A stretch of 63,457 nt of DNA from Candidatus Zixiibacteriota bacterium (GTDB taxonomy: Bacteria; Zixibacteria; MSB-5A5; GN15; FEB-12): assembly GCA_028289585.1 (NCBI GenBank), contig JANQPI010000023.1, positions 1 through 63,457 on the forward strand. Direction: 5' to 3'. The notes beneath the pieces were generated by a model. That model made no database searches and was not told the origin of the DNA. It worked only from the letters and a program-made list of their open reading frames with translations. The translations under genes were made by a program, and so were the position numbers. Positions 1 through 63,457 of this stretch are shown here, piece after piece; within the stretch, counting starts at the first letter, position 1; the number at the start of each line of letters is the position of its first letter.

Positions 1-99
1 CGGGTGCCAATTCCGCCCGACGTGAAGTTTCTTTGCGCCCACAACTCCAGGGAAAGGTGCTTGACGGTCAACACCAGCGTCGGAGGGCGGGACATGGAC
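1..99. repeat. Terminal direct repeat, left copy (circular closure)
   Basis: These 99 bases are identical to the last 99 bases of the window. A gene starting near the right end continues in frame through this copy, so the ends belong together. The length is typical of a k-mer overlap left by an assembler on a circular contig. It could also be a genuine short terminal redundancy; the sequence alone cannot separate the two. Confidence 0.95.
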
Positions 100-249
100 T
101 ACATCGAACTCCGCTGGGACGGAGTCGTCGTTGGCGGGGGCCATAGGGTCCCCTGGGAGATGTTTGTGGAGGCTATGGCCTACGCATCCCAGCAGGCCAA
201 GCGGATAGAAGTGGCCTCTCAGGATCAAAACAAGACGGAGCCGGGCTGA
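1..249 (+). CDS. Hypothetical protein, 3' part of a gene split by the window ends
   Basis: This is the C-terminal part of a small protein whose start lies at 63302 (ATG) or 63266 (TTG) at the other end of the window. The codon CGG at 1-3 matches the codon at 63359-63361, so the frame continues exactly. The joined product from the ATG is about 100 residues and acidic-to-neutral, with a stretch rich in Trp and Gly in the middle (ELRWDGVVVGGG) and a Gln-rich helical end. No family was recognised. It lies directly before another hypothetical gene in what looks like one transcription unit. Confidence 0.75.
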   Translation, partial: RVPIPPDVKFLCAHNSRERCLTVNTSVGGRDMDYIELRWDGVVVGGGHRVPWEMFVEAMAYASQQAKRIEVASQDQNKTEPG

Positions 250-253
250 TCAA

Positions 254-787
254 ATGGTGATTATTAACACCGAGACCTACGACATCGAAATCGAAGAGGT
301 CGACGACGAGGGCGTGTTGCAATGCGGCATGCGTCAAGAGTGGTTGACCTCCTCGCAGGCCGTGTTGTGTCACGGTATCGCGTCGCCTTGGCTGGTCGTC
401 AAGGTGATGAGGGAGGATGGCCAGTGGAGGCACTTCCGGGCCAACATGGGAGCGTTTCTCCAGTCGTTCTACGAAGCGGTCGCGGATGGCCCTGGCTTTG
501 CGGCATCGAAGGACGACATGAATTCGGTCGCATACATCGCCAATGCCTTCCGCGACGAGCCTAGCGAGGCAAATCGATCTGGGGCCGAACTGCTAATGGA
601 TTGTGATACAGATGATATCGCGAAGCATCTAGACGGCGTGGACCCGTGGCCGGAAGGCGATGTCCACGACTGGAGAAATTATTTGCCGGAGCCAGTGCGG
701 GAGGTTTGGTGCGACCTGACCTACTCGGCAAGGCTGGTTGCCTACGCCATTGCGTCTCCACTCGCCGACTCGGAGGAGTGGGAGTAA
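254..787 (+). CDS. Hypothetical acidic protein
   Basis: A 177-residue acidic protein starting at ATG 254, four bases after the previous stop, so the two are probably translated together. The N-terminus (about residues 4-25) is rich in Glu, Asp and Ile, suggesting a beta strand followed by an acidic turn. No transmembrane segment, cysteine cluster or catalytic motif stands out. Function is unknown. It is the largest gene of the small-gene cluster at the left end. Confidence 0.7.
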   Translation: MVIINTETYDIEIEEVDDEGVLQCGMRQEWLTSSQAVLCHGIASPWLVVKVMREDGQWRHFRANMGAFLQSFYEAVADGPGFAASKDDMNSVAYIANAFRDEPSEANRSGAELLMDCDTDDIAKHLDGVDPWPEGDVHDWRNYLPEPVREVWCDLTYSARLVAYAIASPLADSEEWE

Positions 788-805
788 GGAGAAAGAGGGG
801 AGTCC

Positions 806-1012
806 ATGAAGATACTCAAAGAGGATGTCAAGAAATTTGCCTGGAGTTGGGTGGAGGTGTCGGTTGGCATGTGCATTGCGCTCATCGGGTGGAGCATGCT
901 GCTTTGCCTCACCGTGATGGCAATCTGCGAAATCTTCTCGTGGGCGAATTACTTCCTGGATTGGCGATACGGCTACGACTTCAACGATTTCAGTAAAGGT
1001 CGGCAAAACTAG
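806..1012 (+). CDS. Small membrane protein
   Basis: A 68-residue protein with one long hydrophobic segment at about residues 17-45, preceded by a Lys-rich amphipathic stretch and followed by an acidic, aromatic tail. The start is ATG 806, with an AAGAGGGGAG Shine-Dalgarno stretch just upstream. Its stop codon lies directly before the -35 box of the next promoter. The role is unknown; small phage inner-membrane proteins can be lysis or superinfection-exclusion factors, but nothing here decides that. Confidence 0.7.
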   Translation: MKILKEDVKKFAWSWVEVSVGMCIALIGWSMLLCLTVMAICEIFSWANYFLDWRYGYDFNDFSKGRQN

Positions 1013-1013
1013 G

Positions 1014-1042
1014 CTTGACCGCCAGAGTACACAATGTACGAT
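1014..1042 (+). promoter_or_regulatory. Sigma70-type promoter with GTACA-N3-TGTAC operator
   Basis: The -35 is TTGACC (1014-1019), the spacer 17 bp and the -10 TACGAT (1037-1042). An inverted repeat GTACA CAA TGTAC (1027-1039) covers the spacer and the first half of the -10. The same arrangement recurs at other promoters in this genome, so this is read as a promoter controlled by a phage-encoded DNA-binding protein. The predicted transcription start, near 1049, precedes the Shine-Dalgarno of the gene at 1075. Confidence 0.85.
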
Positions 1043-1074
1043 ACCCGTCGTAGATCTTGCAGGGAGATTTCCAG

Positions 1075-1254
1075 ATGATCTTTGCGTTTACGCTGTTTGT
1101 TTCGCTGGGTGCACCCATGCTGTTGGCCACGATCATCATGCGGGACGGCATCGAAGCGGACAGCGAGAACCAAAGAAAGGACCGCGTCTTGGCTTATGAA
1201 TTTCTGACATACCTGGAGAAGTCCGAGAGGCGCAACCGGAAAGGTGGCAAGTGA
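1075..1254 (+). CDS. Small membrane protein
   Basis: A 59-residue protein with an N-terminal hydrophobic segment (about residues 2-21) and a charged, helical cytoplasm-like tail rich in Glu, Arg and Lys. ATG 1075 was chosen because a GGGAG Shine-Dalgarno lies about 8 bases upstream and the operator-promoter at 1014-1042 lies just before it. It is the first gene of that transcript and overlaps the next gene by ATGA, so translation is coupled. Function unknown. Confidence 0.7.
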   Translation: MIFAFTLFVSLGAPMLLATIIMRDGIEADSENQRKDRVLAYEFLTYLEKSERRNRKGGK

Positions 1255-1517
1255 TGCTGTTCGAGCTTGGCTCAGTCTGTGTATTCTCTGGCGGCCAGCT
1301 TGACGGCGAAGTGTTCGGGCCAACCGTCAAGCCTCGAACCATGATCCAGTATCGGGAGGCGCTGATCAAGATCGACGGCGGCCTGGACGAAGTGGCTTTC
1401 ATTCACATCGCTGCACACGATGATTTCGTCCTCGACACGATCATCGAGTCGGGCCCCGGAAGGCTTATGGTGGAGTTGTTTTGGCGATCAATCAGGTTTA
1501 CTGGGTTCTTGCCATAG
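1254..1517 (+). CDS. Hypothetical protein
   Basis: An 87-residue protein that starts within the stop codon of the preceding gene (ATGA at 1251-1256), the usual sign of translational coupling. The N-terminal phrase FSGGQLDGEVFG resembles the next protein's FIGGPWDGRF, so the two may be distant paralogues of a small phage family. No catalytic residues or membrane segments are evident. Confidence 0.65.
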   Translation: MLFELGSVCVFSGGQLDGEVFGPTVKPRTMIQYREALIKIDGGLDEVAFIHIAAHDDFVLDTIIESGPGRLMVELFWRSIRFTGFLP

Positions 1518-1530
1518 GAAAGGACTGACA

Positions 1531-1902
1531 GTGGCTGAACTGATGCGGCATTATTTCTTTATTGGTGGCCCGTGGGACGGGAGGTTTTCGCATATCCCAG
1601 GCTGGCTGGATCGCTTCGAGACGCCAACCGACCTCGACGACCCTCCACGCAGTACCGACCTGCACACCTACCTCCCAAATAAACTCAAGATCCCATCTGG
1701 AGTGGACAAGCATTTGATCTTGACACTGAGCGAGCCAGGGGCAAGGGAAGAGGTTGAACTGGCCAAGGATCACATTGCTTTTGCTCGCGCGATGATCTCA
1801 GAGGACGACAAGGAGTTCATGGACCCAACTTTAATACGGGACAGAATCCTATCGATGCTGGACTTTACGAAATTCTACAGGGAGGGACGACGTGTTTTTT
1901 GA
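1531..1902 (+). CDS. Hypothetical protein with FIGGPWDG motif
   Basis: A 123-residue protein. GTG 1531 was chosen because AGGAAAGGA lies 7 bases upstream; a longer upstream extension would run inside the previous gene in another frame. The N-terminal FIGGPWDG motif recurs in small phage and bacterial proteins of unknown function. The C-terminal half is helical and charged. It overlaps the next gene by 11 bases, again suggesting coupling. Confidence 0.65.
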   Translation: MAELMRHYFFIGGPWDGRFSHIPGWLDRFETPTDLDDPPRSTDLHTYLPNKLKIPSGVDKHLILTLSEPGAREEVELAKDHIAFARAMISEDDKEFMDPTLIRDRILSMLDFTKFYREGRRVF

Positions 1903-2281
1903 GAAGGAACTCATCGGGGAGAAGATCAACGGCAAGCACTACCTCATCCGCTGGACGCTGTTTCGTTGCAGCAAGTTCGTGGTGTATCTCCACAAGTTCT
2001 GTCGGTCGGACATGGCCCGCGACATGCACGACCATCCAGCCCCATTCATCTCCATCGGCCTCTGGGGTAGCTACCTGGAGCACACGCCAAGACTCGACCG
2101 ATACTGGAGCGCGCCCTGGTTCCGTCGCTTTCCATCAAAGCACATCCACCGCATTACCACGATCGGCAAGCGTGGCTGCTGGACGCTGTGCATCACGTTC
2201 CGGCCACGGGAGCGCGAGTGGGGGTTCTGGGTGAAGGGTGCCTGGGTCCCGTGGACTCAGTACCACGAAAAAAAGAATTGA
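1892..2281 (+). CDS. Cupin-like phage protein
   Basis: A 129-residue protein starting at GTG 1892 with GGGAGG upstream, inside the end of the previous gene. Residues 45-63 carry MHDHP followed by a glycine turn and a Glu, and residues 85-89 carry HIHRI. This spacing of His and Glu is typical of a small cupin-like barrel with a metal site. Aromatic residues are abundant (WGFW, WVPW). Proteins of this type are common in phages with no established role. The stop codon overlaps the -35 box of the next promoter. Confidence 0.6.
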   Translation: MFFEKELIGEKINGKHYLIRWTLFRCSKFVVYLHKFCRSDMARDMHDHPAPFISIGLWGSYLEHTPRLDRYWSAPWFRRFPSKHIHRITTIGKRGCWTLCITFRPREREWGFWVKGAWVPWTQYHEKKN

Positions 2282-2306
2282 CCATCTATCGTACATCATG
2301 TACAAA
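2278..2306 (+). promoter_or_regulatory. Promoter with GTACA-N3-TGTAC operator, near-leaderless
   Basis: The -35 is TTGACC (2278-2283), the spacer 17 bp and the -10 TACAAA (2301-2306). The inverted repeat GTACA TCA TGTAC spans 2291-2303. The predicted start near 2313 leaves only about three bases before ATG 2316, so transcripts from here would be almost leaderless. The Shine-Dalgarno AAAGGAG before that ATG would be used only on read-through transcripts. The -10 is poorer than at sister sites, so it may be a weak promoter or mainly an operator. Confidence 0.65.
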
Positions 2307-2315
2307 GGAGCCAGC

Positions 2316-2525
2316 ATGCAAACCAGGGCGTTTGTAGTGGACTGCGGCGGCACGGATTATCGACCATTCCATAAGCGAAACGACGCCTTTGTCTATCGGG
2401 ACCAACGGAAGGAAATCGACAGACACAGGCAGGTCTCGGTCTACGAGATTAATTGCAAGGCGTGCAGCGTGATCGAATTGAAGATCCTTGGAGAGGATGA
2501 TGTCCGAAAGCTCTCTGATTTGTGA
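2316..2525 (+). CDS. Hypothetical protein
   Basis: A 69-residue basic protein with two cysteines in its second half (CKAC near residues 50-53). ATG 2316 is preceded by AAAGGAG at a good distance; the ATG at 2298 lies within the promoter and was rejected. It overlaps the next gene by about 26 bases. Function unknown. Confidence 0.65.
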   Translation: MQTRAFVVDCGGTDYRPFHKRNDAFVYRDQRKEIDRHRQVSVYEINCKACSVIELKILGEDDVRKLSDL

Positions 2526-2697
2526 TCAGTGCGGGGACTCGCCTTGTCAGTGCTGCAAGGACTGCAAGGAGCCGCCCGAGATGTGCGAGTGCACGTTCTG
2601 CCCGAAGTGCATGCGGTATCAAAAAAACTGCGTCTGCTGTCCGGTGTGTGGCTGGGTCGGCAGGGACTGCATCTGCCCCGAGAACGACTGGAGGTAG
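2500..2697 (+). CDS. Cysteine-rich zinc-ribbon-like protein
   Basis: A 65-residue protein with about 16 cysteines arranged as repeated C-x2-C and C-x-C pairs across its whole length, as expected for two or three small zinc-binding knuckles. ATG 2500 follows GGAGAGG; ATG 2497 is possible. It starts inside the end of the preceding gene. Such proteins often bind nucleic acid or a host protein, but no specific target can be inferred. Confidence 0.7.
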   Translation: MSESSLICDQCGDSPCQCCKDCKEPPEMCECTFCPKCMRYQKNCVCCPVCGWVGRDCICPENDWR

Positions 2698-2699
2698 CG

Positions 2700-2852
2700 T
2701 TGGTAAGCAAAAGGCAATCTGACAATGTCCGAGACTATTTCCTCATGTTGGCTGGGGTCTGCTTTGCCATCGTGTGCGCTGGTGCAGCGTTAGGAGCGGC
2801 AACGGCACTGGCGTTTGAGGTGTGCGAATTTATTAGCGGAGTAAGTCGTTGA
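2700..2852 (+). CDS. Small membrane protein
   Basis: A 50-residue protein starting at TTG 2700, with GGAGG about 5 bases upstream. A hydrophobic, Ala/Cys-rich segment at about residues 15-41 predicts one transmembrane helix, preceded by a basic N-terminus. It ends in a TGATG overlap with the next gene. Function unknown. Confidence 0.6.
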   Translation: MVSKRQSDNVRDYFLMLAGVCFAIVCAGAALGAATALAFEVCEFISGVSR

Positions 2853-3208
2853 TGGACAAAAAGCGCGTCGCGTGTGCCTACTGCGGGGAATGGACCGACA
2901 GGGGTTGCGTGGCAAAGTGCCGCAGGTGTTCTGGAATGCCTGTCGGCAGATCGCCACGAGCAATGACCGACTTTGAGGATTGCATCCTGTCCTTTTTGCG
3001 TAACCGTGAAAATGAGTCCTGGACAGCCAGGGCGATTGCCTCCATCGTCTTTCCTGAGAGGTGGGCAAACCCCTCCGGCCATGCGGCGATGGTCGGGCAC
3101 GTACAGAGGGCTTGCAGGAATTTAAGCAATGTCATAACCGAGATTCCACCAAGAAGTGGTGATCGCTGGGATCGTCCTCACTTTTGCTATCGATTGAAAG
3201 GGAAGTAA
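2852..3208 (+). CDS. Zinc-knuckle protein with helical C-terminal region
   Basis: A 118-residue protein starting at ATG 2852 within the previous stop. The first 30 residues hold two CxxC pairs (CAYC, CRRC), a zinc ribbon. Residues 40-115 contain helices and a strand-turn segment that could form a winged helix, so a DNA-binding role is possible but not shown. It overlaps thyX by one base (TAATG). Confidence 0.6.
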   Translation: MDKKRVACAYCGEWTDRGCVAKCRRCSGMPVGRSPRAMTDFEDCILSFLRNRENESWTARAIASIVFPERWANPSGHAAMVGHVQRACRNLSNVITEIPPRSGDRWDRPHFCYRLKGK

Positions 3209-3942: not shown

Positions 3943-3943
3943 T

Positions 3944-3973
3944 TACCCGCCATCGAACGGGCGGAACCTGGAG
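3944..3973. repeat. 30-bp repeat with GC-rich hairpin, copy A
   Basis: Thirty bases here are identical to 60608-60637. Both copies begin just after a TAG stop (thyX here). Within the repeat, CCGCC (3947-3951) can pair with GGCGG (3960-3964) around an 8-base loop. There is no T-run, so a simple intrinsic terminator is unlikely. An RNA-processing or 3'-end-stabilising element is possible. Confidence 0.8.
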
Positions 3974-4016
3974 CGTTGGGCCTAACGAGCCGTATGTCTC
4001 AACCTCTGCTCCTCAC

Positions 4017-4040: not shown

Positions 4041-4096
4041 ATTGATACACCGGGGGCGTCATGTCCAGGAAGAAAAAGAAGCGGAGGCGATGACAG

Positions 4097-5903: not shown

Positions 5904-5947
5904 GGTGGAAAGGTGGCAACGTTGCCATGTGCAATTAGTGTGCCAAT
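5904..5947. repeat. 44-bp repeat with 14-bp palindrome and sigma54-like motif, copy A
   Basis: Forty-four bases are identical to 30781-30824. The element contains the perfect palindrome TGGCAACGTTGCCA. Read on the minus strand it contains TGGCAC-N5-TTGCA, an exact match to the sigma54 -24/-12 consensus, pointing leftward. Here it spans the gap between convergent genes and includes the stop codon of the leftward gene, so part of the match is also coding. Confidence 0.85.
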
Positions 5948-6621
5948 AGCTCCATATATTCAGAAATGGTTGCCTTGTCGGTGTCTGCTTGGAGCACTTT
6001 TCGCACGCAGTGATAGATCTTCATAAGGTCGTCAGTGTCCAGAAGCTTCCAGGCTTCGATGCATTCTTCGGGCATGCCGCCACGCTGGATGCGATCGCAG
6101 AAGTAGTCTAAAACCTCGTCTGGCATGGGAACCACCGACCCGGAGGCGCGTCTTGCCATGTGACCGGCGAAAGTGTCGGTCCACATCGCCAAGGCGTCTC
6201 GCTTCGCTGCCTCGTCTTCCGACAGCGCAGGTTCTTCTGCGGTCGGTTCTGTGTGAGCAACATCTTGCGGAACCGGAATCCCCTGGGCAAGAAAGTCTAC
6301 GCCAGCAATACTCGCGCCCTTGAAGTCGGAAGCCTTGCGGACCTCTTGGAGTCGTGGCCACATGGCGTGGGACGCTGACGGGTCGTCGCAATCATCGATG
6401 ACATTCTCGATGGACTGGCAGCACGAGAGGTGGTTATTTAACTCCATGATGAGGTCGATGATCTCCTGCGTCCACTTGACCGAGCGACCGGTGGGCATGC
6501 CCTCCAAGTCTTTCTCCATCATCAGGCACAGAGCCCTCCAGGCGAGAGGGTATTTGCTGGCGATCGGCCACTCCCCCTCCAGGTTCACTCGGATCACATG
6601 GTCTGATTTCTTCTTGGTCAT
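5935..6621 (-). CDS. Hypothetical protein
   Basis: A 228-residue, mainly helical acidic protein, the last gene of the leftward operon. It starts at ATG 6621, overlapping the preceding gene's stop by four bases. The central part (about residues 115-150) is rich in Glu, Ala and Pro and looks like a linker between two helical regions. No family was recognised. Its stop lies inside the 44-bp repeat. Confidence 0.65.
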   Translation of the reverse strand: MTKKKSDHVIRVNLEGEWPIASKYPLAWRALCLMMEKDLEGMPTGRSVKWTQEIIDLIMELNNHLSCCQSIENVIDDCDDPSASHAMWPRLQEVRKASDFKGASIAGVDFLAQGIPVPQDVAHTEPTAEEPALSEDEAAKRDALAMWTDTFAGHMARRASGSVVPMPDEVLDYFCDRIQRGGMPEECIEAWKLLDTDDLMKIYHCVRKVLQADTDKATISEYMELLAH

Positions 6622-8975: not shown

Positions 8976-9004
8976 TTGACACTCCAGACAACCAATCGTA
9001 CAAT
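8976..9004 (+). promoter_or_regulatory. Rightward half of a divergent promoter pair
   Basis: The -35 TTGACA (8976-8981), a 17-bp spacer and -10 TACAAT (8999-9004) make a near-consensus sigma70 promoter. The operator GTACA ATG TGTAT (8998-9010) overlaps the -10 through its left arm. The start is expected near 9011, ahead of the Shine-Dalgarno for ATG 9044. Confidence 0.85.
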
Positions 9005-9023
9005 GTGTATTATTGTTCGTCAA
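8995..9023 (-). promoter_or_regulatory. Leftward half of a divergent promoter pair
   Basis: On the minus strand, TTGACG (9023-9018), a 17-bp spacer and TACGAT (9000-8995) form a promoter for the operon 8954-5935. Its -10 abuts and overlaps the -10 of the rightward promoter, and both share the operator at 8998-9010. One bound regulator could block or choose between both directions. Confidence 0.85.
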
Positions 9024-30780: not shown

Positions 30781-30824
30781 GGTGGAAAGGTGGCAACGTT
30801 GCCATGTGCAATTAGTGTGCCAAT
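30781..30824. repeat. 44-bp repeat with palindrome, copy B
   Basis: Identical to 5904-5947, including the TGGCAACGTTGCCA palindrome and, on the minus strand, the sigma54-like TGGCAC-N5-TTGCA. Here it fills most of the gap between the nuclease gene and the next tail gene, and no leftward gene uses its TAA. The conservation is therefore not explained by coding. Confidence 0.85.
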
Positions 30825-30836
30825 GGATCAAGACAC

Positions 30837-34308: not shown

Positions 34309-34922
34309 TGGCCAAGAAGAAACGAAAAAAACGAAAAGACATCCCCCTGTTGCCGCAGCACCTGCCGCCCGAGCGGACGTGCTGGACTCCCTGCCGATGG
34401 ATTGAACGCGATGGCGTCAAGATCAAATGCCGTCGCTGTCGGCGCAAGTATCCACACCCTGACCAGCCACATTGCTACATACCGTGCAAGGTACAGTCTC
34501 CATTCGATGACCTCATGCACAGCCGACACGGGCCCGGTCACATTCTGATGTGGTTGCTGGGGTCGATCGGCCTGCATAGCGAGGCGTGGATAGCGATCCG
34601 CAATCGCTGGTATGACGTTGTGGTCCGTTGGTGGGACACCAAGATCAGGCGGCAGGAGTTCCGGGGCATCCCCGAGGAGAAGTGTGGCTGCTGGGGGCGA
34701 TCGAACTACCTCAACAATCGCTGGTTTCGGGCACTCGATGGAATCTACTGGAGGTCGTTGCGAGCGATTGACGCAGCCAAGCGGTTCACGTACACTATGT
34801 ACGGGGGTGTTGCAGGGACAGGAGATGACGATAAAGGACCAGATGATGCCGAAGAAGAAGTCCGCATCCAAGACCCGTTCCAAGAAGACCAACCGCAAAA
34901 CGCCGCAGCAAGTGTTTTGTGA
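34308..34922 (+). CDS. Basic, cysteine-rich protein at the end of the tail cluster
   Basis: A 204-residue protein starting with KKKRKKRK, followed by four Cys pairs (CWTPC, CRRC, CYIPC, CGC) and a Trp/Arg-rich helical middle; the tail is acidic. It may bind nucleic acid or another Cys-rich tail protein. Its 3' end contains the promoter of the HTH gene at 34846, and the two genes overlap by 77 bases in different frames. Confidence 0.6.
   Translation: MAKKKRKKRKDIPLLPQHLPPERTCWTPCRWIERDGVKIKCRRCRRKYPHPDQPHCYIPCKVQSPFDDLMHSRHGPGHILMWLLGSIGLHSEAWIAIRNRWYDVVVRWWDTKIRRQEFRGIPEEKCGCWGRSNYLNNRWFRALDGIYWRSLRAIDAAKRFTYTMYGGVAGTGDDDKGPDDAEEEVRIQDPFQEDQPQNAAASVL
34768..34802 (+). promoter_or_regulatory. 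Promoter and GTACA-N3-TGTAC operator of the HTH gene
   Basis: TTGACG (34768-34773), a 17-bp spacer and TACACT (34791-34796) form the promoter. The operator GTACA CTA TGTAC spans 34790-34802, and its left arm supplies the -10, as at 8998. It lies inside the preceding gene and would start transcription near 34803, just before the HTH gene, suggesting autoregulation. Confidence 0.75.
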
Positions 34923-35118
34923 GAAGTTCGCCGAAGGTCTGGCCGCACGCATGGAGCGCGAAGGCAAGACGATCAATCAGCTAGCCAGCGAGCTGGGCGT
35001 CAGTGTGAGCACAGTCACGCACTGGCGAAGCGGTCGACGCAGCCCCCTCTTTATTCAGCTATTCGGCCTAGCCAAGGCCCTCAACTGCTCCGTGCAGGCA
35101 CTTTTCCCAAGGAAATAA
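34846..35118 (+). CDS. HTH regulator (Cro/CI type)
   Basis: A 90-residue DNA-binding protein. After a Lys/Ser-rich tail, residues ~27-88 form a lambda-repressor-like HTH: KTINQLASELGVSVSTVTHW, with the second helix TVTHWRSGRR as the recognition helix, then helices 4 and 5. It has no C-terminal oligomerisation or peptidase domain. ATG 34846 (or 34843) follows AAAGGA. Its own promoter carries the class-1 operator, so it is the leading candidate for the protein that binds the GTACA-N3-TGTAC sites. Confidence 0.75.
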   Translation: MPKKKSASKTRSKKTNRKTPQQVFCEKFAEGLAARMEREGKTINQLASELGVSVSTVTHWRSGRRSPLFIQLFGLAKALNCSVQALFPRK

Positions 35119-35131: not shown

Positions 35132-35160
35132 TTGACAACTGATAATACATGGTGTACGAT
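35132..35160 (+). promoter_or_regulatory. Promoter with operator variant ATACA-N3-TGTAC
   Basis: Consensus -35 TTGACA (35132-35137), a 17-bp spacer and -10 TACGAT (35155-35160). The operator arms are ATACA (35145-35149) and TGTAC (35153-35157). It lies right after the HTH gene and would drive the recombination/regulation operon that starts at 35202. Confidence 0.9.
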
Positions 35161-37313: not shown

Positions 37314-37329
37314 TTACATCATGTACGAT
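37314..37329 (+). promoter_or_regulatory. Operator variant TTACA-N3-TGTAC with -10 TACGAT
   Basis: The inverted repeat TTACA TCA TGTAC (37314-37326) ends in the same TACGAT -10 (37324-37329) seen at the other class-1 promoters. No good -35 is present at 16-18 bp, so the promoter is weak or needs activation. The next gene starts at 37368. Confidence 0.6.
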
Positions 37330-37708: not shown

Positions 37709-38092
37709 ATGAAGGCGCTCACGAACAGGCAAAAAGAGATCCTGGACTACATCAGGTGGACAATCGGTGCTTATGGGTATCCGCCTACCGTCCGCGAGAT
37801 CGGGGCCAGATTCAAGATCAACTCACCTAACGGCGTCAACCGTCATTTGCACGCACTGAGGGCCAAGGGTTTCGTCGAGTGGGAACCGTACAAGAACCGA
37901 ACACTAAAAGTCATCAACCCAGACCCGCCGATCCGCGGGCCAGTTAAGGTCATCGAAAAGCCGCACGTCCATTATGCCACGCTGCTGCGGGTTGACGACG
38001 AAGAGGAGCTTGGATTGATATCGGCACACATTGACCGAGCGCAAAGCCTCCAGTACGTGGCAGATCTCATTAATCGAGACCAGGGATTTTAG
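37709..38092 (+). CDS. LexA-like winged-helix DNA-binding protein
   Basis: A 127-residue protein. Residues 1-70 match the LexA DNA-binding domain: LTNRQKEILDYIRWTI, YPPTVREIGARFKINSPNGVNRHLHALRAKGFVEW. The LexA self-cleaving peptidase domain is absent; the last 55 residues are an unrelated short alpha/beta region. It probably regulates phage or host (SOS-type) promoters without autocleavage. ATG 37709 has GGAGA upstream. Confidence 0.85.
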   Translation: MKALTNRQKEILDYIRWTIGAYGYPPTVREIGARFKINSPNGVNRHLHALRAKGFVEWEPYKNRTLKVINPDPPIRGPVKVIEKPHVHYATLLRVDDEEELGLISAHIDRAQSLQYVADLINRDQGF

Positions 38093-39386: not shown

Positions 39387-40256
39387 ATGTCGGCAGGTGA
39401 GGGAGTATCGATCTACAAGCTGAGTATCGCGGACATCGATCTAGATTCTGCGATGGTACGACACAAGGTTGACAATGGAACGGTCGACGATTATTTCCGG
39501 GCACTCAAGGCGGGGGAGGAGTTACCCGAGGGCCATGTCTTTGAGGACCCAGAAACCAATGAGGTCTTCCTAGCGGACGGCAGGCATCGCATTGAGGCAA
39601 GGATTAACTTCAATGAGACCGAGATCGCCATGCACGTCCACAAGGGCACCCTGGACGATGCGATCTGGTTTGCGACTCAGGCAGCCAAGCGGCACGGCCT
39701 CCGGATGACAAAAAGCGATAAACGCAAGGCGGTCAATCGTGCCTGGGACTGCTCGCGCGGCAAGGGGCTGTCCGCCCGAAAGATAGCCGAGCACTGCGGG
39801 GTATCGCATACCTTTGCACGCGCCATCCAAAAGGAGCGGCAGGAGAAGGAGGAGCGTGCCAAGCGCAAGCCGTCCGACTCCGAGCCATCGGCGGAGAACG
39901 TAACCGCCGACGATGTCGAGCAAGAAGAGGAACCGGAAGTCTTGGTCGACAAGTACGATGTCGAGATCCCCGAGCATGCGTTGGGGGTGTTCGCCCTGAT
40001 CCCAGAATGGGAGGCGGTCTATAAGGAGATCGGTGCCTGCATCAGCAAGATCAACGCACTGGCCTCCGGAGAGTCCGGCCAGCACTTCGACAAGACCTCC
40101 TGCATTGCGTCGCTGCGTAACGCACGCAACTCCATCAACCAGCGGATGCCGCACGCCGTCTGTCCCTACTGCCTGGGTAGGCGAAGCAACTGCAAGGCGT
40201 GTCACGGCCTGGGGTACGTCGACAAACTGGTCTACAAGCAAGCCCCCAAGGATTAG
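39387..40256 (+). CDS. ParB/Srx-domain protein with HTH and zinc ribbon
   Basis: A 289-residue protein. Residues ~5-95 hold a ParB-type nuclease/CTPase-like domain with the box LADGRHRIEA. Residues ~125-150 (LSARKIAEHCGVSHTFARAIQKE) form a ParB-like HTH. A charged linker follows and the C-terminus holds a CPYC/CKAC zinc ribbon. It may aid DNA replication, partition or regulation. No ParA is present, so a full partition system is unlikely. ATG 39387 has AAGGAG upstream. Confidence 0.8.
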   Translation: MSAGEGVSIYKLSIADIDLDSAMVRHKVDNGTVDDYFRALKAGEELPEGHVFEDPETNEVFLADGRHRIEARINFNETEIAMHVHKGTLDDAIWFATQAAKRHGLRMTKSDKRKAVNRAWDCSRGKGLSARKIAEHCGVSHTFARAIQKERQEKEERAKRKPSDSEPSAENVTADDVEQEEEPEVLVDKYDVEIPEHALGVFALIPEWEAVYKEIGACISKINALASGESGQHFDKTSCIASLRNARNSINQRMPHAVCPYCLGRRSNCKACHGLGYVDKLVYKQAPKD

Positions 40257-40258: not shown

Positions 40259-40720
40259 ATGTACTACACGATTTTCGGCCTGTGCCCACGCGACGACATC
40301 ACCTTAGGCGCTCATGGCTTTATGATTGCCTTGTCTCCGGAATTCAAAGAGGCGGCTGCGCGTAGCGGGATCGGGCAAGAGAGGGTTGACGAGGACCTGG
40401 ACGCCCTCCATCGAAAGTGGCTGGATGCCTGTGGGTACGACAGTCTGTGGACGCCAGACGATTTTGACCTCGACGAATCAGGGAACCCGAAAACCGAATA
40501 TCTGTACGGTCGCGACGCCATCCTAGCCAAGTGGGGAGAGTGGGGCGTGGAGCACATTAGCATCCCTGGGAACGCTTGCGGATTGGATATCGACCGAGGC
40601 ATCGACGGCATGACCCTTGCGCCACACAACGTCGACTCCTGGAAGCAAAAGAATCTCCTCCTGATCGTGTTCACGCACTTTGCCTATCTGATCGAGCTAC
40701 TTGGAACGGACCGTCGCTGA
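40259..40720 (+). CDS. Hypothetical protein
   Basis: A 153-residue protein starting at ATG 40259 right after the ParB-like stop. It opens with MYYTIFGLCPRDDI, continues with acidic helices, and contains a WTPDDFDLDESGN loop that could bind a metal ion. It ends in a TGATG overlap. Function unknown. Confidence 0.6.
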   Translation: MYYTIFGLCPRDDITLGAHGFMIALSPEFKEAAARSGIGQERVDEDLDALHRKWLDACGYDSLWTPDDFDLDESGNPKTEYLYGRDAILAKWGEWGVEHISIPGNACGLDIDRGIDGMTLAPHNVDSWKQKNLLLIVFTHFAYLIELLGTDRR

Positions 40721-41277
40721 TGTACTACGAAAGCGAAAACACAATCACGCTGGTGGAGCCTGGGTTTGGTGGTGCCATCTTCTCTCGGTGCATGAAGTAT
40801 CGGTATGTACTGTGGCGTGATATCGGCGGGCAATTGCCGCAGGGCAGATGGGAGACTGCCGCGTTTGTGGGACTCAATCCATCGACGGCCACACATAAGG
40901 AAAACGACCCCACGATCCGCAGGTGCATCGGCTATTGCGAGCGATGGAGTTACAAGCGGTTTGTGATGCTTAATGCTTTCGGTTATCGGGCCACCGAACC
41001 CAGCGACATGATTGCCCTGGGCCTCAAGGCAGCAAATGGTCCGGACAACGATGCCGCCATCGTACAGACTGTACAAAATGTGGGCTTGGTGGTTGCAGCC
41101 TGGGGTGTTAATATCGCCAAGCTTCCTGGAAGGGAAACGGAGCTATTGGGGATGATTCGCGAACACATCCACATTACATGCCTTGGCAAAACCAACGGCG
41201 GACACCCCAAGCACCCCCTCTATCTCAGGAAGGATCTTACACCCGTTAACATGCAGGGAGGCACCGATGGCGGTTAA
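40720..41277 (+). CDS. DUF1643-family protein
   Basis: A 185-residue protein matching DUF1643: RYVLWRDIG, FVGLNPSTATHKENDPTIRRCIGY, RFVMLNAFGYRATEP, and a late LVVAAWG strand. The family is common in phages and bacteria near DNA-modification genes; its activity is not established. It starts at ATG 40720 within the previous stop. Within its 3' half lies a class-1 operator sequence. It overlaps the helicase gene by 11 bases. Confidence 0.8.
   Translation: MYYESENTITLVEPGFGGAIFSRCMKYRYVLWRDIGGQLPQGRWETAAFVGLNPSTATHKENDPTIRRCIGYCERWSYKRFVMLNAFGYRATEPSDMIALGLKAANGPDNDAAIVQTVQNVGLVVAAWGVNIAKLPGRETELLGMIREHIHITCLGKTNGGHPKHPLYLRKDLTPVNMQGGTDGG
41062..41074. promoter_or_regulatory. GTACA-N3-TGTAC operator within the DUF1643 gene
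   Basis: GTACA GAC TGTAC is a perfect class-1 inverted repeat, extended to CGTACA/TGTACA. TACAAA (41072-41077) could be a -10, but no -35 is present on either strand. By chance such a 10-base pattern is expected well under once per genome, so this copy may be a real binding site before the helicase gene (41267). Confidence 0.5.
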
Positions 41278-51291: not shown

Positions 51292-51319
51292 TTGACATAT
51301 ACCGTACATTGTGTACGAT
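51292..51319 (+). promoter_or_regulatory. Promoter with perfect GTACA-N3-TGTAC operator
   Basis: TTGACA (51292-51297), a 16-bp spacer and TACGAT (51314-51319). The operator GTACA TTG TGTAC covers 51304-51316. It drives the zinc-ribbon genes from 51354. Confidence 0.9.
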
Positions 51320-52085: not shown

Positions 52086-52200
52086 GTACCATATGTACGG
52101 TTGTCGCCATTGTCGTGTGTTTGTGTTGTGGTGGCCCCAGGTGCTTCGAGGTAGCCTTCTCATGGGCTCTCCAGACTCGTTCCCTGGGGCCATCTTTCAT
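52086..52200 (+). ncRNA. Candidate small RNA controlled by a class-1 operator
   Basis: The operator GTACC ATA TGTAC (52086-52098) with -10-like TACGGT (52096-52101) has no rightward gene behind it. About 25 bases after the expected start, TGGCCCCAGG (52132-52141) pairs perfectly with CCTGGGGCCA (52183-52192), enclosing a smaller AGCC/GGCT stem, and then TCTTTCATT follows. This could be a ~90-nt regulatory RNA or simply a terminator between convergent operons. No good -35 was found, so a promoter is unproven. Confidence 0.4.
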
Positions 52201-52529: not shown

Positions 52530-52566
52530 CCAGCCCGAGAATTCTACTTGGGCTGGTTTCTTTTAT
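52530..52566 (+). terminator. Rightward intrinsic terminator
   Basis: CCAGCCCGAG (52530-52539) pairs with CTTGGGCTGG (52547-52556), followed by TTTCTTTTA. It would stop rightward transcription from the 51.3-kb promoter before it enters the leftward block. It overlaps the stop codon of the HTH gene. Confidence 0.8.
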
Positions 52567-52777
52567 GCGCTGCGTAGTCGCACATCCGATCGGGCCTCAC
52601 ATCAAGGGCTAGGCAGATTTTGATCAACGCCGACACCTTGGGTTCAGAGTCTCCGTTCTCCCAGCGTTGCAGCATCGAACGGGAGCAGCCAATCTTGTCG
52701 GCGGCATCTCGAAAACTTAGCCCGCGGAGTCTCCGGTAATGTCTGATCTGTGCATGTATCGCGTGGGGATTGCTCAC
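52544..52777 (-). CDS. Second HTH regulator (Cro/CI type)
   Basis: A 77-residue protein with a lambda-repressor-like HTH: IRHYRRLRGLSFRDAADKIG, then CSRSMLQRWENGDSEPKVSALIKICLALDV. The recognition helix is RSMLQRWENG. GTG 52777 was chosen because AAGGTGG lies 5-8 bases upstream; GTG 52786 is possible. It lacks any oligomerisation domain. It lies downstream of the class-2 operator promoter at 53063, so it may autoregulate that promoter and oppose the HTH protein at 34846. Confidence 0.8.
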   Translation of the reverse strand: MSNPHAIHAQIRHYRRLRGLSFRDAADKIGCSRSMLQRWENGDSEPKVSALIKICLALDVRPDRMCDYAAHKRNQPK

Positions 52778-52828
52778 GGCTTCCACCTTGGTTGAATGAA
52801 AAAGGCGGGGATTGCTCCCCGCCAGAAA

Positions 52829-53017: not shown

Positions 53018-53062
53018 TTTTCAAGCCTCCAGTTGTTTAGAACTCCTTAACTCCATGCCCCA

Positions 53063-53091
53063 AGTGTACCACAGATAGGGTACAGTGTCAA
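53063..53091 (-). promoter_or_regulatory. Leftward promoter with class-2 operator
   Basis: On the minus strand, TTGACA (53091-53086), a 17-bp spacer and TACACT (53068-53063). Inside lies the inverted repeat TGTACC-N8-GGTACA (53065-53084). The 23 bases 53062-53084 are identical to 53621-53643. It drives the gene pair with the second HTH regulator. Confidence 0.9.
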
Positions 53092-53134
53092 GAAGAAACC
53101 GAGCGGGTTTTTGTCGCCCGCCCGGTTCGATCTC

Positions 53135-53578: not shown

Positions 53579-53621
53579 TTGGTTCTCCCTGCAACAAAGT
53601 AACGCTTAACCCAACAACCAA

Positions 53622-53650
53622 AGTGTACCACAGATAGGGTACATCGTCAA
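53622..53650 (-). promoter_or_regulatory. Leftward promoter with class-2 operator, second copy
   Basis: Minus strand TTGACG (53650-53645), a 17-bp spacer and TACACT (53627-53622). The inverted repeat TGTACC-N8-GGTACA is at 53624-53643. It drives the gene 53578-53135. Confidence 0.9.
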
Positions 53651-53707
53651 GTGAATTCCGGAGGGATTTCCTAGGCCACTGTCTGGCGTCAGATTCCGAC
53701 ATCCACC

Positions 53708-55764: not shown

Positions 55765-55785
55765 TGATCGTACATGAGGTACAAA
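55757..55785 (+). promoter_or_regulatory. Promoter with operator GTACA-N3-GGTAC overlapping the terL stop
   Basis: TTGCCT (55757-55762), a 17-bp spacer and TACAAA (55780-55785). The operator GTACA TGA GGTAC (55770-55782) has one arm mismatch. Transcripts would begin near 55792, at the first of two strong hairpins, and serve the operon from 55899. Confidence 0.65.
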
Positions 55786-56623: not shown

Positions 56624-56651
56624 TTGACAATAATCGTACACCTTGTACGAT
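56624..56651 (+). promoter_or_regulatory. Promoter with full 8-3-8 operator palindrome
   Basis: TTGACA (56624-56629), a 16-bp spacer and TACGAT (56646-56651). The operator is the best in the genome: ATCGTACA-CCT-TGTACGAT (56633-56651), perfectly symmetric over 19 bp. It starts the operon from 56679. Confidence 0.92.
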
Positions 56652-56852: not shown

Positions 56853-57289
56853 TGCCAAGCCAAGACACAGAACACTTCGGCAACGCCTTTTCGTCAGCCT
56901 GGGAACGGGAAGCCGAGAAGTACGCAGAGTCCGCCACCGAGCTATCCAATAAGCTGGAGGAGTGGGTCGAGTGGATCATCAACATTCCTGGCATCGTGGG
57001 TGCCAGTGTTGATATCAAGCACGACGACAACGAGACCCTAAACGGCTGCCGACTTCGTGTGTGCAAGATGGACAAAGTCGGGTGGACCGTTGCTTTTGTG
57101 GATAAGAAGGATCATCACACGCGGCTGGTTGATTGTGGAGCGATCGCCAAGGGGGTGGCAGCCCAGCATCTCCCCAAGCTGCTGCACAACATGATGTCCA
57201 CTCAGAGAAAAGCACACTCAGATGTCCGCAAGGGGATAGAGGCACTGGGCACATTTAGTCCGTTAGCGGTTCCAACGGAGGACGAGTGA
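56852..57289 (+). CDS. Hypothetical protein
   Basis: A 145-residue mostly helical protein starting at ATG 56852 in the previous stop (TGATG). A central beta segment (CRLRVCKMDKVGWTVAFVDKK) separates two helical regions. It overlaps the PP-loop gene by one base. Function unknown. Confidence 0.6.
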   Translation: MPSQDTEHFGNAFSSAWEREAEKYAESATELSNKLEEWVEWIINIPGIVGASVDIKHDDNETLNGCRLRVCKMDKVGWTVAFVDKKDHHTRLVDCGAIAKGVAAQHLPKLLHNMMSTQRKAHSDVRKGIEALGTFSPLAVPTEDE

Positions 57290-58050
57290 TGCCCGAAACA
57301 AAGCAACCGCTCTGTATCTGCTACGGGATGGGCGTTGATTCCACGGCGCTACTGGTAGGACTGGCAACCATGGGTATTCGCCCGGACCTCATAACGTTTG
57401 CCGACACTGGAGGAGAGAAGCCAGACACCTACCTGTACGCCCCGATTATGCAAGAGTGGCTGCGGGATCAAGGATTCCCACCGATCACAGTTTGCCGCTA
57501 TGTTCCGCCGATCGCCAAGTATAGGACGCTGCTTGGCAACTGCATCCAGAATGAGACCATCCCCTCGCTAGCCTTTGGCCGCAAGGCGTGTTCGCTCAAA
57601 TGGAAGAGAGACGCACAGGAGCCACTCCGCAGGAGGTTGCCCGAGAACGTTCGTGCGTGGTCAGAAGGCTTGAAGGTCCGCAAGGCGATCGGATTTGATG
57701 CCAGCGAAACTCGCAGGACATACGCTGGAGTCGGCAACGAGGTCGATGAGTACGACTACTGGTACCCACTCCAGGACTGGGGCTGGGATCGCAAGATGTG
57801 CGAGAGGCAGATTTGGGCTGCTGGCCTGCCTGTCCCGGTTAAGTCGGCGTGCTTCTTCTGCCCGGCCATGAAGAAGCCAGAGATCAAGGACCTTGCCGAG
57901 AGGCACCCAGACCTACACCAGATAGCACTGGACATGGAGCAGGGCTACAGGACCGGCAAGCATTGGAGGGGCGATGAGGCGTCAACCAAGGGCCTGGGGA
58001 GACGGTTTGCGTGGGGCGATCTCGTCGACGATGGGACGGGGGACGAGTGA
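57289..58050 (+). CDS. PP-loop ATPase (PAPS-reductase-like family)
   Basis: A 253-residue adenine-nucleotide alpha-hydrolase-like enzyme. The PP-loop is YGMGVDST (12-19), followed by ITFADTGGEKPDT (35-47). Cys101 (RKACSLKW) and Cys188/Cys191 (SACFFCP) resemble the cysteines of PAPS-reductase- and DndC-like proteins that may hold a cluster or thiol. Family members reduce PAPS, thiolate nucleic acids or modify nucleosides; the phage versions are mostly uncharacterised. No dnd or other sulfur genes are adjacent. ATG 57289 overlaps the previous stop. Confidence 0.8.
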   Translation: MPETKQPLCICYGMGVDSTALLVGLATMGIRPDLITFADTGGEKPDTYLYAPIMQEWLRDQGFPPITVCRYVPPIAKYRTLLGNCIQNETIPSLAFGRKACSLKWKRDAQEPLRRRLPENVRAWSEGLKVRKAIGFDASETRRTYAGVGNEVDEYDYWYPLQDWGWDRKMCERQIWAAGLPVPVKSACFFCPAMKKPEIKDLAERHPDLHQIALDMEQGYRTGKHWRGDEASTKGLGRRFAWGDLVDDGTGDE

Positions 58051-59335: not shown

Positions 59336-59336
59336 C

Positions 59337-60196: not shown

Positions 60197-60217
60197 GCAA
60201 AGCTAACGAGGCCCCAA

Positions 60218-60479: not shown

Positions 60480-60607
60480 GTAAAGACCTGGAAGAGTTTA
60501 ACGAGTTTGTTGGTAAGGCTGGAAATCTGATCGGCTACACCATCGTGGTGGCCATAGCTTGTACTGCTCTAGGCATCTGGATCGGTTCGCTGGATCGCTT
60601 GTGGTAG
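60476..60607 (+). CDS. 43-residue membrane protein
   Basis: A frame from ATG 60476 to TAG 60607 with AGGAGAAACG upstream. An acidic N-terminus precedes one transmembrane helix (about residues 16-37). The clear ribosome site supports it. The 30-bp repeat follows one base after its stop codon. Function unknown. Confidence 0.6.
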   Translation: MSKDLEEFNEFVGKAGNLIGYTIVVAIACTALGIWIGSLDRLW

Positions 60608-60637
60608 TACCCGCCATCGAACGGGCGGAACCTGGAG
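60608..60637. repeat. 30-bp repeat with GC-rich hairpin, copy B
   Basis: Identical to 3944-3973, and again directly after a TAG stop. It lies between the small membrane gene and the Mini-A-like gene. The final bases (CCTGGAGGG here) could add to the ribosome-binding region of what follows. Confidence 0.8.
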
Positions 60638-60662
60638 GGTGGGTGGATGGGGAAAGGATGAG

Positions 60663-61577
60663 ATGACAAAAATCGAATACGTTCCGAAGATGTTCAGGTC
60701 CGAGACGCTGGACTTGATCGACCTTGCCAGTGACATCATCGACGAGTACCAAGGCCAAGGCTTCGTCCTCACGCTGCGTCAGTTGTATTATCAGATGGTC
60801 GCCCGCGACGTGATCCCTAATACAGAAAGGAGCTACAAGCGAATGGGCTCCATTGTCGCGGACGCTCGTCTGGCTGGCCTCTTGAGTTGGGAAGCCATCG
60901 AGGATCGCACGCGCAACATTCGACACAACCCACACTGGGACAAGCCGCAGGACATCATTCGCGACGCTGCCGAGCAGTTCCGCATCGATGTGTGGGCCGA
61001 TCAGGAGTGGGCACCCGAAGTGTGGATCGAAAAGGACGCACTTGTCGGGGTAATCGAGAGGGTATGTACGCGGCTGGACATTCCCTACTTTTCCTGCCGT
61101 GGCTACACATCGCTATCCGAGATCTGGAACGCAGGCCACCATAGGATCAGAGGGGCGATCGACGCTGGCCGCAAGCCGTTGATCATACACCTCGGGGACC
61201 ATGACCCATCGGGGATCGACATGACGCGGGACATTATCGAGCGGCTGGAGATGTTCGCCGGAGAGTCGATCCTCGTATCTCGCATCGCGTTGAATAGAGA
61301 CCAGATCGACCAGTACAACCCACCGCCCAACCCCGCGAAGCTAAGCGACTCTCGATGCCGCCGATACATCGCGGAGCATGGGTCATCATCGTGGGAGCTA
61401 GATGCCCTGGACCCATCTACGATCGAGAGGCTGGTGGAGGATGAGGTCATGATGTACGCCGACCCCGATCTCCTCGATGCGTCGATCGCCAGACAGGAGG
61501 TTCATCGCAAGAAGCTGGCAGAGGTTGCCAGTCGGTTCGATGAGTTTACTGGAGGCGATGATGGCCAAGAAGATTGA
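60663..61577 (+). CDS. Spo11/TopoVIA-like protein (Mini-A type)
   Basis: A 304-residue protein resembling the A subunit of type IIB topoisomerases without a B subunit. Residues ~35-46 (LTLRQLYYQMVA) fit the winged-helix RxxYY motif with the DNA-attacking tyrosine (Tyr42 or Tyr43). The Toprim domain shows WIEKDALVGVIE (Glu123) and HLGDHDPSGIDM (Asp179, Asp181). No ATPase B-type gene was found, as in the Mini-A group described on mobile elements. It may make double-strand breaks or nicks. ATG 60663 has GGAAAGGA upstream. Confidence 0.8.
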   Translation: MTKIEYVPKMFRSETLDLIDLASDIIDEYQGQGFVLTLRQLYYQMVARDVIPNTERSYKRMGSIVADARLAGLLSWEAIEDRTRNIRHNPHWDKPQDIIRDAAEQFRIDVWADQEWAPEVWIEKDALVGVIERVCTRLDIPYFSCRGYTSLSEIWNAGHHRIRGAIDAGRKPLIIHLGDHDPSGIDMTRDIIERLEMFAGESILVSRIALNRDQIDQYNPPPNPAKLSDSRCRRYIAEHGSSSWELDALDPSTIERLVEDEVMMYADPDLLDASIARQEVHRKKLAEVASRFDEFTGGDDGQED

Positions 61578-61776
61578 ATCGGCCATGTCAGGCGAGATAC
61601 GAAAGGGCTTCCTCGATGCACAAGAGGACTTCAACTCCATGTTGAGTTGCGCTGCATGTCGCGGCAAGGAATACCTGGAGGCAACGAAGTGCGAGAGCCC
61701 TAGCGATTATCTCCGTGGGTGGCGTCTGGTAGCGATTGACGCGAAGCATTCACCCCACACTTGCGAGAGGGTTTAG
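61561..61776 (+). CDS. Small Cys-containing protein
   Basis: A 71-residue protein from ATG 61561 with GGAGG 5 bases upstream, overlapping the end of the previous gene. It contains CAAC, KCE and a final TCERV, so a zinc knuckle is possible. Tight coupling to the Mini-A-like gene suggests a functional link. Function unknown. Confidence 0.6.
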   Translation: MAKKIESAMSGEIRKGFLDAQEDFNSMLSCAACRGKEYLEATKCESPSDYLRGWRLVAIDAKHSPHTCERV

Positions 61777-61778
61777 CC

Positions 61779-62096
61779 ATGGTCGGCGGGCGAGTTGTCG
61801 AAGTGTCAGAGGTCAAGAATCGACCGGACGTTCTGTACGTGGACTGTGCCGACTTTCAGTATAGACGCAAGCGACCCGATACGTGTGCCATCTACATCGA
61901 GAAAAACAGAACCAGCGAACTGATCGAGATTGGCGATTCTCTCTGGTGGCAAGGTCGATTTGCTATGTGGACTCCCCTTCGCAACTGCGTGCCGGAAGAT
62001 GGGGGAGAGGATCTTCGCTGTGGCATCGATTACGACATCGAGATCCCGAGAATCGGATACTCCGGGGTTGATCATCCGGATAGGAGTAAAGACTGA
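61779..62096 (+). CDS. Beta-rich hypothetical protein
   Basis: A 105-residue protein from ATG 61779. Alternating strands and an SLWWQGRFAMWTP segment suggest a small beta barrel. It overlaps the next gene by one base. I recall similar small proteins in phages, but with no assigned function. Confidence 0.6.
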   Translation: MVGGRVVEVSEVKNRPDVLYVDCADFQYRRKRPDTCAIYIEKNRTSELIEIGDSLWWQGRFAMWTPLRNCVPEDGGEDLRCGIDYDIEIPRIGYSGVDHPDRSKD

Positions 62097-62527
62097 TGAC
62101 GCATCGCGTTGATTGGACTGATGAGGCCGCTTTGGAGTGGTTGGAGGCGTTTGCACCTGAAAGCGTCGTGTGTACCGCGCTGCCCGGATTCAAGGTTGAT
62201 CCGCTGTCTGGTGAATGCGATGAGCTATCCTCGTGGGTTCTAATTCAATGGGACAAGGAGACCTTGGCGTCCATTGGCTCACTGGAACCCCGCGAAGCGG
62301 TCGCGATTTCCTCCACCCTCGAAGCCCTCCCGCAGTTGATCGAGAAGCACGGCAAGCAAGCCGCAGAGATTTTAGATCTAAAAAAGAAGCTGTCCGAGAT
62401 CGCGGACACGATCAAGGAGTCCTTGAAATATCACGACGCATGGGAGGAGGGTGGCGTTTGTCTAGAGATGGATATGGGGGATCTCCTTGACAGCCTAGAG
62501 GACTGCAACGAAAAAGATTCCACTTGA
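62096..62527 (+). CDS. Helical hypothetical protein
   Basis: A 143-residue protein starting at ATG 62096 in the previous stop (TGATG). The second half is a coiled-coil-like helix with Glu, Lys and Leu. Its stop overlaps the -35 box of the next promoter. Function unknown. Confidence 0.6.
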   Translation: MTHRVDWTDEAALEWLEAFAPESVVCTALPGFKVDPLSGECDELSSWVLIQWDKETLASIGSLEPREAVAISSTLEALPQLIEKHGKQAAEILDLKKKLSEIADTIKESLKYHDAWEEGGVCLEMDMGDLLDSLEDCNEKDST

Positions 62528-62552
62528 CGCTGACTCGTACATAGTGTACGAT
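62524..62552 (+). promoter_or_regulatory. Promoter with 7-3-7 operator palindrome
   Basis: TTGACG (62524-62529), a 17-bp spacer and TACGAT (62547-62552). The operator TCGTACA TAG TGTACGA spans 62535-62551. It drives the gene at 62600 and perhaps those across the window junction. Confidence 0.9.
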
Positions 62553-62599
62553 GTGTGCAGTCAAGAAAAAACGAGGCTTCAAGCGAAAGGTGGAATCAA

Positions 62600-62911
62600 A
62601 TGTCGTCGCTGTATACTGCTGCGGTCAGGTACTTGCCGTCAGGCAAAACTAGACTGGAAGACGCCAAACTGGTTGGGGTCTGCAAATTTGTGGATGTCCC
62701 AAGGAAGGGCGACTCCGTCGCCTTAAGCCTTGCGATGATCAGTAAAATTTCCGAAATAGAGATCGCAGAGAGCAGGGATACGGTGTCATCGATATACCTG
62801 CCCGTTTGGGAAGTTGCATTCGATCCGGTCGACAGGCAGGTCACTTCCGATCCACTGCAAGAGATCGTTGGATTTACAGTCTTTTTGAGTGACGCCGAAC
62901 GCACGATGTAG
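62600..62911 (+). CDS. Hypothetical protein
   Basis: A 103-residue protein from ATG 62600 with AAAGGTGGAA upstream. It alternates strands and loops, with an acidic end. It is the only gene between an operator-promoter and an intrinsic terminator, so it is probably expressed early and alone. Function unknown. Confidence 0.65.
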   Translation: MSSLYTAAVRYLPSGKTRLEDAKLVGVCKFVDVPRKGDSVALSLAMISKISEIEIAESRDTVSSIYLPVWEVAFDPVDRQVTSDPLQEIVGFTVFLSDAERTM

Positions 62912-62929
62912 CAGTCCACCTTAGCTGGG

Positions 62930-62962
62930 CCTCGGTCCCTCCGCTTGGGGCCGGGGTCTTTT
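62930..62962 (+). terminator. Intrinsic terminator
   Basis: CCTCGGTCCC (62930-62939) pairs with GGGGCCGGGG (62947-62956), allowing two G-T pairs, around a 7-base loop, followed by TCTTTT. The next gene starts 18 bases downstream. Confidence 0.8.
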
Positions 62963-62979
62963 ACCTGAAAGGTTGATCC

Positions 62980-63249
62980 ATGGAGTTCAAGCGCATTCGC
63001 AAGCAAGGCATGAGGGCAAAAACCCGCAAAGTGTGGATCAGTGAATGCGGTCACTATCGCATCATGTGGAGTAACAACATCCACGGCGTCGATGTCAAGC
63101 CGTACTACCACGCGAGCATCAAGCGGTATCGGGACGATGGCTCTGCGTGGTGGGACTATGCCGGAGAGCGCCGCCACTATCGCACGTTCAACGCGGCCAA
63201 GTCTGCCTGCGTGAAGCGTGGCCGCCTGGAGAAGTCGACCAGCAGCTAG
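62980..63249 (+). CDS. Basic hypothetical protein
   Basis: An 89-residue basic protein from ATG 62980, rich in Arg, Lys, Tyr and Trp, with a beta-hairpin core and a helical end. It could bind nucleic acid, but no motif is specific. The ribosome site (AAAGG) overlaps the tail of the terminator. Function unknown. Confidence 0.65.
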   Translation: MEFKRIRKQGMRAKTRKVWISECGHYRIMWSNNIHGVDVKPYYHASIKRYRDDGSAWWDYAGERRHYRTFNAAKSACVKRGRLEKSTSS

Positions 63250-63301
63250 CCGCAGGAGGTGTGTTTTGTCGGATTACGTTCCGTACTTGAGGGGAGAACT
63301 C

Positions 63302-63457
63302 ATGTTGCCAGATGATGAGAAATCGAAGGTGGAGCAGGGAGGGAAGGGGCGTAGGATTCGGGTGCCAATTCCGCCCGACGTGAAGTTTCTTTGCGCCCAC
63401 AACTCCAGGGAAAGGTGCTTGACGGTCAACACCAGCGTCGGAGGGCGGGACATGGAC
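63302..63457 (+). CDS. Hypothetical protein, 5' part of a gene split by the window ends
   Basis: This is the start of the gene that continues at 1-249. ATG 63302 has GGGGAG upstream. An in-frame TTG at 63266 has a stronger AGGAGGT site 7 bases away and would add 12 residues, so the true start is uncertain. The N-terminal region is charged and probably disordered (KSKVEQGGKGRR). Confidence 0.7.
   Translation, partial: MLPDDEKSKVEQGGKGRRIRVPIPPDVKFLCAHNSRERCLTVNTSVGGRDMD
63359..63457. repeat. Terminal direct repeat, right copy (circular closure)
   Basis: Ninety-nine bases identical to 1-99. Removing one copy leaves a closed sequence of 63,358 bp in which the flanking gene is uninterrupted. 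Confidence 0.95.

Follow-up and report, generated by a model that had tools for sequence, protein, structure and literature searches.

The circular phage contig analysed here carries 12 copies, exact or with one mismatch, of the 13-bp inverted repeat GTACA-N3-TGTAC (motif 1), most of them set into the core of sigma70-type promoters. With a probability of about 0.8, we read these sites from the DNA sequence as the dispersed operators of one phage-encoded dimeric repressor. The window, i.e. the whole stretch of DNA that was analysed, is the 63,457-nt contig JANQPI010000023.1 (GCA_028289585.1) from Candidatus Zixiibacteriota bacterium, forward strand, positions 1–63,457. The location of each feature is presented in Table 1.

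The phage contig

Bases 1–99 of the window are repeated as bases 63359–63457, which marks the contig as a complete circle. Matches to PHROG families revealed genes for portal, head and terminase proteins, and further phage genes specify an Erf-like annealing protein, a DNA methyltransferase, a ParB-like protein and a topoisomerase-family protein; gene starts are the output of a simple custom gene caller. Searching the scanned proteins with the PF00589 and PF00239 profiles, we found no tyrosine or serine integrase, the gene by which an integrating temperate phage would be recognized. No close relative was detected by megablast against phages, and only distant relatives were returned by IMG/VR searches with the terminase, capsid, helicase and topoisomerase-like proteins, or by searches of the host's class with the capsid and terminase. 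Motif 1 as a set was absent from all of the distant relatives found.

A number of other features were observed in the contig. These include a ThyX-type thymidylate synthase gene (PF02511; 3208–3942), a phosphoadenosine phosphosulfate reductase-like gene that is a possible auxiliary metabolic gene (phrog_424; 57289–58050), and two pairs of direct repeats. The first pair (5904–5952 and 30781–30829) is 49 bp long and 96 % identical, with 25 kb between its two intergenic copies, whilst the second (3944–3979 and 60608–60643; 36 bp, 94 % identity) lies beside the ThyX gene and the topoisomerase-family gene.

Table 1. Putative operators, promoters and candidate regulators of the phage contig, with positions in the window
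Feature	Position	Strand	−35 match to TTGACA	Promoter, context or evidence
Complete circular phage contig, 63,358 bp	1..63457	.		99-bp identical terminal overlap; large terminase, portal and major head protein families
Putative operator, exact	1027..1039	+	≥5/6	TTGACC-16-TACGAT (1015–1042)
Putative operator, exact	2291..2303	+	≥5/6	TTGACC-17-TACAAA
Putative operator, one mismatch	8998..9010	.	≥5/6	Common to two overlapping divergent promoters: plus TTGACA-17-TACAAT (8976–9004); minus TTGACG-17-TACGAT (9023–8995)
Weakest putative operator, exact	34790..34802	+	≥5/6	TTGACG-17-TACACT (34768–34796); 22 bp before HTH gene at 34825
XRE/HTH_3 protein, 97 aa, candidate binder	34825..35118	+		Pfam HTH_3 5.3e-11; PHROG transcriptional repressor families
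Putative operator, one mismatch	35145..35157	+	≥5/6	TTGACA-17-TACGAT (35132–35160); upstream of operon with Erf-like gene
Putative operator, one mismatch	37314..37326	+	None convincing	TACGAT; closest upstream site to LexA-domain gene
LexA DNA-binding-domain protein, 127 aa, candidate binder	37709..38092	+		PF01726 84.6 bits
ParB-like DNA-binding protein, less likely candidate binder	39387..40256	+		phrog_1033 1.1e-10
Putative operator, exact	41062..41074	.	None convincing	No promoter; within gene 40720–41277; 190 bp before helicase gene
Putative operator, exact	51304..51316	+	≥5/6	TTGACA-16-TACGAT (51292–51319)
Putative operator, one mismatch	52086..52098	.	4/6	Weak plus promoter TTGAGG-17-TACCAT, antisense into minus operon
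XRE/HTH_3 protein, 80 aa, candidate binder	52544..52786	−		Pfam HTH_3 4.9e-14; PHROG transcriptional repressor families
Promoter with motif 2 (TGTACC-N8-GGTACA)	53063..53091	−		TTGACA-17-TACACT; strict scan
Promoter with motif 2 (TGTACC-N8-GGTACA)	53622..53650	−		TTGACG-17-TACACT; strict scan
Putative operator, one mismatch	55770..55782	+	4/6	Weak promoter TTGCCT-17-TACAAA; 6 bp past terminase gene
Best putative operator, exact	56636..56648	+	≥5/6	ATCGTACA-CCT-TGTACGAT; TTGACA-16-TACGAT (56624–56651)
Putative operator, exact	62537..62549	+	≥5/6	TTGACG-17-TACGAT (62524–62552)

Enrichment of motif 1

An earlier reading of the sequence, made without database searches, had proposed 12 operators. 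All 12 were found at the positions given there, seven as exact copies and five with one mismatch. In the window as a whole we identified 17 copies at one mismatch or fewer (the seven exact copies and 10 others), compared with 0.56 expected and a maximum of 4 in dinucleotide shuffles; thus, the similar number of sites in shuffled sequence that would have pointed to chance did not appear, and motif 1 shows the many copies beyond chance across a phage genome that characterize dispersed operators. Motif 1 was also the commonest inverted repeat with 5-bp arms in the window when spacers of 0–20 were considered (seven copies, against a maximum of five in 60 shuffles), whilst no copy of the GTACA and TGTAC arms was found in the window at any other spacer of about 0–9. 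The remaining 3.09 Mb of the same genome contained three exact copies and 53 at one mismatch or fewer; the host chromosome thus has no counterpart of the phage-wide symmetric set as a whole.

When a symmetric weight matrix was derived from the 12 sites, exactly these ranked first, with scores of 18.6–28.0, compared with 14.2 for the next-best site and 16.9 for the best of 30 shuffles; as such, the selection of these 12 was sound. The matrix extends motif 1 to ATCGTACA-N3-TGTACGAT, with ATC on the left flank in six sites, GAT on the right flank in six, and at least one exact flank in 11 of the 12. In the best copy, which had been described as a 19-bp perfect palindrome at 56633, two perfect 8-bp arms are indeed present, but the CCT spacer is not self-complementary. 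The five one-mismatch copies outside the set of 12 (9470, 9880, 11376, 29000 and 52270) are coding, and possess neither a −35 box nor an ATC or GAT flank. Leave-one-out scores for the 12 sites ranged from 14.1 to 26.9. The lowest belongs to site 34790; as this value falls below the shuffle maximum and the site overlaps an alternative ORF, it could be a chance occurrence.

Motif 1 within promoters

For eight of the 12 sites we detected a −35 box matching TTGACA at five or more of six positions and lying 16–18 bp before the TAC of a motif arm, an arrangement seen at 5 % of random positions and at 7 % of other GTAC positions. In most of these promoters motif 1 sits between the −35 and −10 boxes, with one arm providing the TAC of the −10, and the association with promoters is again that of dispersed operators. 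The original prediction, that a TTG box and a TAC-containing arm occur together at most sites, therefore stands for these eight, whilst the other four have a weak −35 box (52086 and 55770) or no convincing one (37314 and 41062), and so count against the operator reading. At 8998 the predicted plus-strand promoter using the left arm is present, but an additional minus-strand promoter had been overlooked. When both strands were scanned under strict sigma70 settings (a TTG-type −35 of at least 5/6, a TA...T −10 of at least 4/6 and a spacing of 16–18), 11 matches were returned: eight with motif 1, at seven sites, two with a second inverted repeat, and one within a gene. Direct observation thus covers the sites and their symmetry, as well as their enrichment and their location within promoters.

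A second motif upstream of an XRE gene

The second inverted repeat (motif 2) lies in two 47-bp repeats (53046–53092 and 53605–53651) that are 83 % identical, and fully so over 23 bp on the −10 side, each containing a minus-strand promoter. Both promoters are upstream of the XRE gene at 52544–52786, whose operon is the only one under motif 2, and neither carries motif 1. As the only good promoters escaping motif 1 are those that carry motif 2 and drive this operon, their position outside motif 1 control suggests a two-regulator switch.

Alternative explanations for motif 1

The right arm supplies the −10 hexamer TACGAT in most of the promoters, as it would if motif 1 were a phage-specific promoter consensus, i.e. 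an extended −10 read by RNA polymerase or by a sigma factor of the phage, with no separate protein. This is quite improbable, however, given that the left arm, despite falling in the spacer, is as well conserved as the right, that the −10 can be drawn instead from the left arm or from the minus strand, that site 41062 has motif 1 but no promoter, and that the motif-2 promoters combine a −35 of the same type with a TAC-type −10 while lacking motif 1. Moreover, the left ATC that extends half of the sites, a promoterless one among them, is not explained by a plus-strand −10 box, and argues instead for a dimeric DNA-binding protein, which is the natural reading of the symmetry of motif 1. Such a protein could be the ParB-like one encoded by the contig, with motif 1 serving as its partition or silencing sites, as for KorB of plasmid RK2, a repressor that belongs to the ParB family and has its operators on a single replicon (PMC11790492). 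Nevertheless, no ParA was recognized among the proteins scanned, and KorB operators are located upstream of the promoter or far from it (PMC11790492), whereas motif 1 is within the promoter core, making this explanation very unlikely.

The binder could also be host LexA, with the phage belonging to the host SOS regulon as does phage GIL01, and in host lexA promoters the LexA box likewise occupies the interval from −35 to −10. In disagreement with this, the boxes that precede lexA in the host's class (L006 and L061–L071) approximate to CTGNNC-N4-GNNCAG, a different word with a different spacing, and only two loose matches to the LexA box were found in the window, both away from the putative operators. 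In addition, motif 1 is missing from host promoters, as the three exact chromosomal copies are inside ORFs (L001–L003). The phage sites thus do not conform to the host LexA box, and we rejected host LexA as the binder, a reading that is barely credible; this comparison presumes correct assignment of the contig to the genome bin, with which its G+C content agrees (0.57).

Candidate binding proteins

We infer binding, repression and a single binder for motif 1, and the candidates for that protein can be ranked only tentatively from sequence. Foremost, although still doubtful, is the LexA-domain protein at 37709–38092, which matches the DNA-binding domain PF01726 only and shows no LexA peptidase domain for self-cleavage; a structure model, of modest confidence overall and uninformative as to the binding site, has the winged-helix order of elements, with the C-terminal part not confidently predicted. 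Favouring this candidate, cyanobacterial LexA boxes (consensus AGTACWNWTGTACT) have the same GTACA half-site with an N2 spacer (PMC3091678), and gp6 of phage GIL01, likewise a peptidase-less LexA DNA-binding domain, binds a palindrome of its own, GaCACA-nn-TGTGaC (PMC6182141). Against it, the N3 spacer of motif 1 is one base longer than the cyanobacterial spacer, and the LexA-family boxes cited all have a spacing of an even number of bases. Ranked behind it as a possible binder is the XRE protein at 52544–52786, which is attractive in that its operon alone escapes motif 1. The XRE protein at 34825–35118, whose gene has putative operators on both flanks, is an unlikelier choice than either, and binding by some other protein, for example the ParB-like one, is improbable.

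Phages with LexA-domain proteins had no matching repeat set, the host's class yielded only homologues of both XRE proteins that were too distant for sites to be transferred, and the solved structures compared were generic relatives only. A scan for the full promoter–operator pattern returned one phage contig (L013:13333–13345), in which the match is just upstream of an XRE repressor gene but is compatible with chance, and single matches in four bacterial contigs (L018–L021), estimated to be at or below chance. Separately, in Hafnia phage yong2 (L074:8106–8211) we observed that GGACA-N3-TGTCC recurs three times without mismatch in a stretch of about 105 bp, and in this phage a LexA-domain-only protein adjoins the integrase.

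Discussion

The nearest known systems to the motif 1 set are the operators of phages phiC31 and P1 and the repressor sites of cluster A mycobacteriophages. The conserved inverted repeats (CIRs) bound by the phiC31 repressor are symmetric and dispersed over the phage genome near promoters, as is motif 1; however, their operator word differs, motif 1 occupies the region from −35 to −10 in consensus sigma70 promoters, and no phiC31-type repressor was recognized among the window proteins scanned. The C1 repressor of phage P1 has 22 operators dispersed on one genome (PMC8546580), resembling the single repressor that we propose here, but these are 17 bp long and asymmetric, in contrast to motif 1, and P1 is a plasmid prophage, a state that is hypothetical for the present phage. 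Cluster A mycobacteriophages (L5, Bxb1) have 20 to 30 repressor sites genome-wide, some inside promoters (PMC6550527); unlike motif 1, which is symmetric and mostly inside promoters, these sites lack symmetry, point in the direction of transcription and for the most part lie outside promoters. GIL01 gp6 is, like the LexA-domain candidate, a phage-encoded LexA-type domain without peptidase, with a palindrome unlike the host LexA box (PMC6182141), but it acts as the activator of a late promoter, at a site covering the −35 (PMC6182141), whereas here binding is predicted at 12 sites.

If the 12 sites are operators of a phage repressor, each half-site would be TGTACGAT read outward from the centre. 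Given that the operator lies between −35 and −10 and that an arm supplies the TAC of the latter, we propose that bound repressor would exclude RNA polymerase from the promoter core. In this way it would shut down nearly all plus-strand operons along with the minus-strand operon at 5.9–9.0 kb, which would probably allow one DNA-binding protein of the phage to silence almost all phage transcription. In the proposed switch, one regulator would silence the motif-1 promoters, whilst another would control the operon of the first. Such a switch might serve the timing of the lytic cycle or lysogeny, the latter, as no integrase was found, as an extrachromosomal prophage. A specific version, which we consider unlikely although conceivable, is that a peptidase-less phage LexA domain, with a half-site of cyanobacterial type and odd spacing, holds a private regulon over almost every promoter and is paired with a second operator type controlling the only operon outside it.

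Dispersed-operator control is a known style among phages, whilst the phage itself, having no close known relative, is new. It comes from a little-sampled bacterial class and has its putative operator placed within the core of the promoter; should the operators function as proposed, nearly all of its promoters would be governed by a single protein. Furthermore, the sites form a compact and fully mapped set, the candidate regulators number three or four, and a second motif is at hand, so that the switch could be reconstructed outside the host.
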